Of a stretch of DNA of 35,870 nucleotides, positions 23,831-25,247 are shown in pieces. The DNA comes from an uncultured Coriobacteriaceae bacterium (lineage in GTDB: Bacteria > Actinomycetota > Coriobacteriia > Coriobacteriales > Coriobacteriaceae), in contig CALUOB010000008.1 in assembly GCA_944322175.1 (NCBI GenBank), positions 1 through 35,870 on the forward strand. The letters run 5' to 3'. Position 1 is the first letter of the stretch. The number at the start of each line of letters is the position of its first letter. The notes beneath the pieces were generated by a model. That model made no database searches. It was not told the origin of the DNA and worked only from the letters and a program-made list of their open reading frames with translations. The translations under genes were made by a program, and so were the position numbers.

Positions 23831-23905
23831 GCCAGCGTGGCTCAACGGTAGAGCAAGTGATTTGTAATCACTGGGTTGCGGGTTCGATTCCTGTCGCTGG
23901 CTCCA
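23831..23905 (+). tRNA. tRNA-Thr(TGT)
   Basis: Complete cloverleaf with encoded CCA (23903-23905). Acceptor GCCAGCG (23831-23837) pairs with CGCTGGC (23895-23901), discriminator T. Anticodon stem AGTGA/TCACT (23856-23860/23868-23872) encloses TTTGTAA, giving anticodon TGT, which reads ACA. T-loop sequence GTTCGATTC is at 23882-23890. The last 21 bases are repeated 185 bp downstream. Confidence 0.95.
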
Positions 23906-23972
23906 GAAACGCAACGGGCCCGGTCCGATACCAGGACTGGGCCCGTTTCTGCATCGCGCCGGAATCGAACAC
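23885..23972 (+). repeat. 88-bp direct repeat, copy 1 (tRNA-Thr 3' end plus terminator)
   Basis: Identical to 24070-24157 except one base (T23938 versus C24123). It begins in the T-loop of tRNA-Thr, covers the rest of the tRNA and CCA, the terminator and about 25 further bases ending GGAATCGAACAC. That end is the reverse complement of the tRNA T-arm GTTCGATTCC, so the unit itself can fold into one long hairpin. Confidence 0.9.
23914..23949 (+). terminator. Terminator of tRNA-Thr
   Basis: 13-bp stem ACGGGCCCGGTCC (23914-23926)/GGACTGGGCCCGT (23934-23946) with one G-T pair, 7-nt loop, then TTCT. The duplicated copy at 24099-24134 has a perfect stem. Confidence 0.85.
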
Positions 23973-24069: not shown

Positions 24070-24157
24070 CGATTCCTGTCGCTGGCTCCAGAAACGCAAC
24101 GGGCCCGGTCCGATACCAGGACCGGGCCCGTTTCTGCATCGCGCCGGAATCGAACAC
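24070..24157 (+). repeat. 88-bp direct repeat, copy 2 (tRNA-Thr 3' fragment plus terminator)
   Basis: The first 21 bases (24070-24090) are the 3' end of tRNA-Thr with CCA but no 5' half, so this is a tRNA fragment, not a gene. A perfect-stem terminator follows (24099-24134). Layout is that of a tRNA-targeted attachment-site scar or of a tandem duplication with deletion. Confidence 0.88.
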
Positions 24158-24161
24158 ATGC

Positions 24162-24282
24162 CAAATAACGCTCTTAACGCCGTTTTTTGGCCACCCTCAT
24201 CTACCTGCGCAAATATGAGATATTCGCAGGTAGATGATGGAGAAGAGCCCCGGCCAAAATGCGCCGTTAACAGCGTATTTTG
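24162..24282. repeat. 121-bp nested palindromic element
   Basis: Outer arms of 31 bp (24162-24192 and 24252-24282) match as reverse complements at about 24 of 31 positions, with conserved blocks CAAA, ACGCT, TTAACG and TTTTGGCC. Inner arms of 16 bp (24194-24209 and 24225-24240) match at 15 of 16, core CATCTACCTGCG/CGCAGGTAGATG. The tip AATAT-GAG-ATATT adds five pairs. The whole can fold into one long imperfect hairpin or cruciform. It is less GC-rich than its surroundings and begins four bases after the tRNA fragment repeat. No open frame. Confidence 0.8.
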
Positions 24283-24377: not shown

Positions 24378-25247
24378 TTAGCGCTTGTCGGCGAGGAAGA
24401 AGAGCGCCATGGTTCCGGGGCCGGAATGGGCCCCGATAACAGGGTCGACGTAGTTGATGCGCACGTCTTGCACGCCGAGCTTCTCGCGGATCTGCCCGGC
24501 TACGTACTCCGCGTCCTCCAGGCAGTCACCGTGGGTGATAAACACCGGCTCCTGGATGGGCCTGACAGCGCTTTGCTCCATGTGCTTGACAAGGGCGTTG
24601 AGCGACTTCTTGCGGCCGCGGACCTTTTCGAGCGGGATGAGCCTGCCTTCATCGTCAACATGCATGACCGGTTTTATGTTGAGCACCGTGCCCGCCCAAG
24701 CGCTCGTGCGGCTGACGCGACCGCCTCGGAAAAGGAACATGAGGTCGTCGACCGTGAACCAATGGGCGAGGTGCAGGCGGTTCTCGACCACCCAGCGGGC
24801 CACCTCTTCGAGACTCTTGCCCTCCCGCGCGAGCCTCGCGGCGTGGTAGACGAGAAGCCCTTGGCCGCCCGAGGCCGCGAGCGTGTCGATGGCAATGAGC
24901 CGGCGGTTGGGGTAGTTGGGCGCGAGTTGCTGGAAGAGCAGGTCGGCGGCCTCGTAGGTTCCCGAGAGCGCGCTGGAGAAGCCGAGGAACAGCACGTCCT
25001 TGCCCTTCTCGAGAAGTCCGCGAACGAGCTCTTCGGATTCGCTCATGTTGGGGAGCGAGGTCTTGATGACCTTTCCCTCGCGCATCATGGTGTAGAACTG
25101 CTTGAGGTCGGTGACCTCTCCCTTGAGGTAGCTGCGGTACTCCTCGCCGTCAACAAGGAAGCGCAAGGGGAGGATGTGGATGCCGAGCTCGTCGATGGTC
25201 GCCTCGGTGAGGTTGCAGCACGAGTCGGTGACGATGGCGTAGTCCAT
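24378..25247 (-). CDS. DegV family fatty-acid-binding protein
   Basis: DegV/FakB-type protein that binds a fatty acid; FakB members present it to the FakA kinase for phospholipid synthesis. The 289-residue product has AIVTDSCCNL (4-13), the KTSLPNMSE loop (62-70), SSALSGTYEAA (91-101), a middle VSRTSAWAGTVLNIKPVMHV block and C-terminal IGAHSGPGTMALFF (271-284), where His274 and the T7-D8-S9 segment fit the lipid-headgroup site. ATG 25247 has GAAAGG six bases upstream on the minus strand. It is transcribed away from the STAND/SARP regulator gene; no fakA is in the window. Confidence 0.9.
   Translation of the reverse strand: MDYAIVTDSCCNLTEATIDELGIHILPLRFLVDGEEYRSYLKGEVTDLKQFYTMMREGKVIKTSLPNMSESEELVRGLLEKGKDVLFLGFSSALSGTYEAADLLFQQLAPNYPNRRLIAIDTLAASGGQGLLVYHAARLAREGKSLEEVARWVVENRLHLAHWFTVDDLMFLFRGGRVSRTSAWAGTVLNIKPVMHVDDEGRLIPLEKVRGRKKSLNALVKHMEQSAVRPIQEPVFITHGDCLEDAEYVAGQIREKLGVQDVRINYVDPVIGAHSGPGTMALFFLADKR

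Follow-up and report, generated by a model that had tools for sequence, protein, structure and literature searches.

A multicopy family of composite palindromes between genes in two Collinsella-like species, read as a putative double-stranded DNA site

Results

A nested palindrome beside a duplicated tRNA segment

The window, meaning the whole 35,870-nt stretch of DNA analyzed here, carries a palindromic element between a tRNA-Thr gene and a degV-like gene (Table 1). The preliminary description of this locus had pictured a near-complete hairpin with outer arms paired at about 24 of 31 positions and inner arms at 15 of 16, unlike its neighbors in composition and starting four bases past a duplicated tRNA fragment, and every part of this picture was borne out. 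The outer arms (24162-24192 and 24252-24282) form 25 Watson-Crick pairs and one G-T pair over 31 positions, and the inner 16-bp arms (24194-24209 and 24225-24240) pair at 15 of 16. The minimum free energy of the element as RNA is -53.6 kcal/mol, compared with -25.8 ± 3.6 kcal/mol for 200 dinucleotide shuffles, none of which was as stable (z = -7.8); folded as DNA, it is similarly far from its shuffles (z = -7.3). Its G+C content is 48%, against 64% for the window and 67 to 72% for the flanks. The hairpin is real. The 88-bp block that ends just before it stands in tandem duplication, with a spacing of 185 bp and 99% identity, and includes the fragment GAATCGAACAC in addition to the tRNA 3' end and hairpin. 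A similar duplication is seen at the orthologous locus of the sister genome introduced below.

Table 1. Features of the element and its surroundings, in window positions
Feature	Position	Strand	Remark
tRNA-Thr(TGT)	23831..23905	+	
Duplicated block (tRNA-Thr 3' end and downstream hairpin), copy 1	23885..23972	+	Neighboring feature
Duplicated block (tRNA-Thr 3' end and downstream hairpin), copy 2	24070..24157	+	Ends 4 bp before the element
Whole palindromic element	24162..24282	none	One member of a 24-copy family in its genome
Left 28-bp palindrome P, consensus CAAANNNCGCYGTTAACRGCGNNNTTTG	24162..24189	none	GC directly outside both ends in most copies
Central inverted repeat (core) ATCTACCTGC-N17-GCAGGTAGAT	24199..24235	none	Segment common to Coriobacteriia
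Right spacer	24236..24254	none	Exceeds the left spacer by about 10 nt; same asymmetry in relatives with unrelated arms
Right 28-bp palindrome P	24255..24282	none	
degV-like gene	24378..25247	-	3' end towards the element, 95 bp off

The element is one of many copies of fixed length

A BLAST search with the 121-bp element against its own genome returned many matches. Extraction and alignment of the loci gave 24 copies there and 22 in a sister genome, that of the uncultured Collinsella CASEEV01 (G002), where a covariance-model search found further copies on contigs 97, 75, 71, and 65, for a total of about 26. Copies are almost always 120 to 121 bp long, although they are only 65 to 80% alike (about 30% divergence). 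All share one anatomy, in which two 28-bp palindromes, here called P, stand 93 bp apart around the inverted repeat that we call the core. With its outer GC, P reads GC-CAAANNNCGCY-GTTAAC-RGCGNNNTTTG-GC, and each outer arm is itself a palindrome. Scanning for P with zero to three mismatches gave 48 forward matches in the window's genome, where all 24 copies have a P pair 93 bp apart, and 52 in G002 (up to three mismatches). Across both whole genomes every match was paired except one in G002, and a reversed-P control pattern matched nowhere in either. Centers of P and core are 41.5 and 51.5 bp apart and the two P centers 93 bp; that these distances approximate whole helical turns is suggestive only. 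In alignment A1, columns 53, 55, and 59 change together and divide the left arms of the core into two types, CTACCTGCG and CTGAGCTGGG-like, next to a constant right arm, CGCAGGTAGA.

That these copies form a real, conserved, multicopy family is, in our judgment, virtually certain. In our reading it is a new ERIC/BIME-like family of palindromic intergenic repeats, and its history is best explained by amplification in the ancestor of the two Collinsella-like species and retention by selection since then. No relevant report of an intergenic repeat in Coriobacteriia turned up in literature searches, and the element is previously undescribed.

All copies lie between genes. In our own codon-usage gene calls, 16 copies lie between convergent genes, 23 between genes in tandem, and 6 between divergent ones. 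Around the 24 copies of the window's genome, 27 of 47 neighboring genes present their 3' end to the element, and the median distance is 94 bp for gene 3' ends against 188 bp for 5' ends. Neighboring genes share no common function by eye; at one copy (L016, 2-1567), apparently missing from G002, the neighbor is a Cas9-like gene. CTTCTC/GAGAAG motifs are dense in the intergenic flanks of copies, at times as tandem arrays (L012), and a GAGAAGRRCGG-like motif occurs 22 times in the window with one mismatch allowed, against 4.3 expected. We considered whether these motifs and the element make up a larger composite, and rejected this since they are common window-wide and out of register with the element. 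An origin in phages or plasmids was likewise set aside: phages and plasmids searched for the element gave no match, P is absent from IMG/VR, and three core matches in that database appear to be due to chance or to coding sequence.

Motifs are conserved at orthologous loci without covariation of the arms

Most copies occupy loci shared by the two species. Flank comparison placed 17 elements at the same locus in both, and these were aligned. Four further orthologous pairs were inferred from flanking genes or spacing (L010/L164, L024/L165, L020:4874/G002 C65:28158, and L022:1532/G002 C71:4173) and were left out of the substitution rates, which rest on the 17 aligned pairs. Between the species, 4.7% of the fixed P bases and 7.4% of inner-stem positions differ, compared with 24% for the NNN positions of P, 23% for the loop, 24% for the right spacer, and 27.6% for the flanks. 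Orientation to the flanks is constant, with the core inverted in none of the 17 pairs. Elements found only in G002 have flanks that gave weak or paralogous matches at most in the window's genome.

Pairing between the arms is not the conserved property. Over 46 copies, covariation was 0.123 in the local helices and 0.123 in shuffles, 0.153 against 0.164 in the inner helix, and the long hairpin paired at 77.6% against 79.0%; nor did the orthologous pairs contain an excess of compensatory changes over slid pairings. The preliminary description had taken a lack of both further copies and covariation as a sign of chance or of lineage-specific sequence; the covariation is indeed lacking, yet the sequence is strongly conserved and the copies exist, which already refutes that reading. 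The reversed-pattern control and the order-wide distribution of the core described below also speak against chance, and we regard the probability of a functionless coincidence as negligible. At the Y/R pair of P, C-A mismatches are as frequent as U-G wobbles, so no transcript strand is favored.

Either A or G adjoins the GCG of each P half-site. Palindromes that mix the two forms (A/G; alpha-beta) number 59 of 92 against 41.6 expected (0 of 5,000 shuffles) and, in the window's genome alone, 32 against 21.9 (2 of 5,000), an excess that is inflated by the relatedness of the copies; column-preserving tests were weaker (39 and 21 of 5,000 for all copies, 240 and 90 of 5,000 for that genome alone). 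The excess may mean that perfect palindromes are avoided or that two unlike subunits are involved; it is not explained by a simple homodimer operator. Conservation of the half-sites could in part be due to copying among copies.

The core is shared across Coriobacteriia and its arms are exchangeable

When 257 Gb of genomes were scanned for exact matches to the 20 core bases, nine stretches were returned, eight of them in Coriobacteriia (Collinsella, Enorma, Atopobium, Lancefieldella, and uncultured Coriobacteriaceae) and the ninth in a Chloroflexaceae MAG, probably by chance. A covariance model of the core matched 33 of 199 genomes of the order, usually one to four times each, as opposed to about 25 or more times in the two amplified genomes. 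These one to four copies in other Coriobacteriaceae and Atopobiaceae have unrelated outer arms, and P was found in no other genome of the genus and family. The ends of the element are conserved within the two species and replaced in other genera, and the inner repeat is older than the palindromes around it. In G003 the core has a perfect 30-bp outer stem unrelated to P, and in G214, one genome of family f5, the whole architecture is repeated with a different palindrome, GTTGCAACC..GGTTGCAAC. Arms of unrelated sequence are complementary at nine loci (0 to 1 of 500 shuffles as good); Lancefieldella-type copies are without such arms. One flank of the core is always 9 to 10 nt longer across genera, or 6 nt in a core near xerD. 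This complementarity and constant asymmetry could alternatively reflect selection on a folded strand.

The core near xerD is degenerate, lacks P, and lies about 150 bp downstream of the gene (L163, 4423-5045, between xerD and a mraZ-like gene; also L184). It is conserved in both species, with 1 change in 34 positions, and its surroundings change more. Nearby, ACACAATATATTGTGT resembles an NrdR box.

A solo P and gene traffic at element edges

A solo P lies on G002 contig 72, where contig 60 of the window's genome has a full element with near-identical flanks on both sides. Its left half is that of the left P in the full copy and its right half that of the right P, which places the crossover inside P. 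At this one locus, the only case of presence and absence, the difference is exactly one P plus the core (93 bp) with no other duplication; a target-site duplication, which the preliminary description had suggested looking for, was not seen there. Either the core and one P were deleted between the 28-bp repeats, through recombination or slippage, or recombination at P introduced them.

Gene content varies around some elements. On G002 contig 82 (L053, 1439-5088), an ATPase gene and an ABC-2-like permease gene alternate with three near-identical elements, the outer two of which share flank sequence beyond the element; the window's genome has a single element there. A gene block that varies among strains lies between two inverted cores in the g18 genomes (L147, 5337-7460; L149, 1112-5319; L156, 5381-6632), and homology stops at the element edges. 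Such traffic, though of interest, is not enough to establish site-specific recombination.

Discussion

Conserved, contact-like blocks separated by neutral bases and held at constant spacing give the element the look of a double-stranded protein-binding site. Since motif bases change at 5 to 7% and spacers and flanks at 23 to 28%, with no covariation of the arms, protein-bound DNA motifs are favored over a structured RNA, a terminator, or a decaying MITE. We therefore propose, with a probability of roughly 0.5, that the element is a composite site for one or several putative sequence-specific DNA-binding proteins. Two dimer-type palindromes and the central inverted repeat would be kept at fixed spacings so that the protein or proteins could assemble on them, mostly near gene 3' ends. 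A dispersed noncoding repeat, amplified in the common ancestor, would then probably have been domesticated as a nucleoprotein site.

The location near gene ends also invites a reading in which the element works as RNA, as a bidirectional terminator or a stabilizer of mRNA 3' ends, and the great stability of the fold, the bias of neighboring 3' ends towards it, the consensus P hairpin (-17.6 kcal/mol, ending in T6), and arm complementarity across genera would suit it. Such a role nevertheless appears unlikely to us. Covariation is absent among the 46 copies, the T-tract and NNN positions evolve about as neutrally as the flanks (24% and 27.6%), and neither strand is preferred, whether judged by the tandem contexts (14 against 9) or by the C-A and T-G counts. 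No terminator-like site was found in the copy at 24162-24282, which weakens the earlier suggestion of a bidirectional terminator for the tRNA and degV transcripts: a GC stem with a T-tract under selection is not what we see. Its other suggestion, a structured RNA, gains no support, as covarying pairs are missing within the clade, even though unrelated arms do pair across genera, and an Rfam search gave no match, so that a known RNA family was rejected. An ordinary MITE or PATE, a selfish non-autonomous element mobilized by a transposase in trans, with P as its ends and without host function, would account for the many dispersed copies, the differing loci between genera, the full element and solo P at one orthologous locus, and the copies acquired around new genes on contig 82. 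The preliminary description's mobile palindrome of MITE or REP type holds as to kind, being dispersed, intergenic, and multicopy. Several observations nonetheless stand against such an origin: a whole-genome search for PF01797 (Y1_Tnp, RAYT/TnpA-REP) gave 0 matches, which excluded a RAYT/REP origin; a partial transposase search saw no autonomous copy; no target-site duplication was seen at the one solo-P locus; the core and not the ends is conserved between genera; and motifs at fixed loci are under purifying selection, unlike decaying MITEs. We consider a plain MITE improbable.

Sites of the dif and pdif kind are 28 bp long, with two related 11-bp half-sites around 6 bp. P has the same 11+6+11 layout and two related half-sites, and one could imagine a dif- or attC-like recombination site at which gene blocks between elements are exchanged. 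The crossover inside P, the alpha-beta excess, the synteny breaks at element edges in G086 and G143, the alternating elements and genes on contig 82, and the degenerate core beside xerD are consistent with this. It nonetheless strikes us as distinctly improbable. The element occurs in tens of copies with no recognized similarity to dif, none of the 17 orthologous copies is inverted although a palindromic P would permit it, and slippage between the 28-bp repeats equally explains the 93-bp loss. Tyrosine recombinase (Phage_integrase) matches number only three, two of them XerD- and XerC-like housekeeping genes by context and the third an unclassified one on contig 153. Integron attC was considered, and no attC boxes were recognized by eye.

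Among known repeats, the enterobacterial ERIC/IRU/RU-1 elements are near-complete intergenic palindromes of about 120 to 130 bp in tens of copies per genome, with an obscure manner of spread (PMC2229807, PMC10969869). Against the ERIC standard of a roughly 127-bp intergenic palindrome in tens of copies, the present element has 121 bp and 24 copies, all intergenic. ERIC has TA termini, short terminal inverted repeats, and target-site duplications (PMC2229807, PMC10969869), whereas our element ends in CA..TG flanked by GC, each end being its own 28-bp palindrome, has a deeply conserved core, and resides in Coriobacteriia. REP/BIME sequences resemble it as paired palindromic units around a spacer between genes, and by coincidence the core stem terminates in CTAC/GTAG; their units, however, are 20 to 40 bp with an unpaired GTAG foot and are mobilized by RAYT (PMC3733652), whereas here GTAG pairs with CTAC inside the core stem, the unit is fixed at 121 bp, and the lack of a Y1/RAYT gene excludes a REP/BIME proper. 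Correia/NEMIS and other bacterial MITEs are likewise long-stem hairpins of 100 to 155 bp between genes (PMC2229807, PMC10969869), but no pair of terminal inverted repeats and transposase and no target-site duplication was found for this element, which is under motif-wise purifying selection at orthologous loci. Its termini thus set it apart from ERIC, and it is most like an ERIC/BIME-type palindrome kept as a DNA site, a mechanism to which we give even odds.

The usual view of ERIC and other palindromic intergenic repeats is that they are selfish hairpins. In the two sister genomes, motif bases are preserved locus by locus while paired non-motif bases drift, so the question of hairpin or protein site becomes directly testable. 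The element also offers a case of an interior older than its ends and a marker for a class of gut and oral bacteria that has received little study. A bolder extension, which we think doubtful, is that the deeply conserved core with its exchangeable outer palindromes forms a class-wide system of sites in Coriobacteriia, where a putative host protein would organize the chromosome or guide recombination at gene ends.

In G122 (L150, 4552-9680), the core loop contains an extra palindromic repeat, CAAGACAG...TGTCTTGC, and the core elements adjoin a series of short peptides that are Nif11-leader-like, have Cys/Gly-rich ends, and are possibly RiPP precursors.
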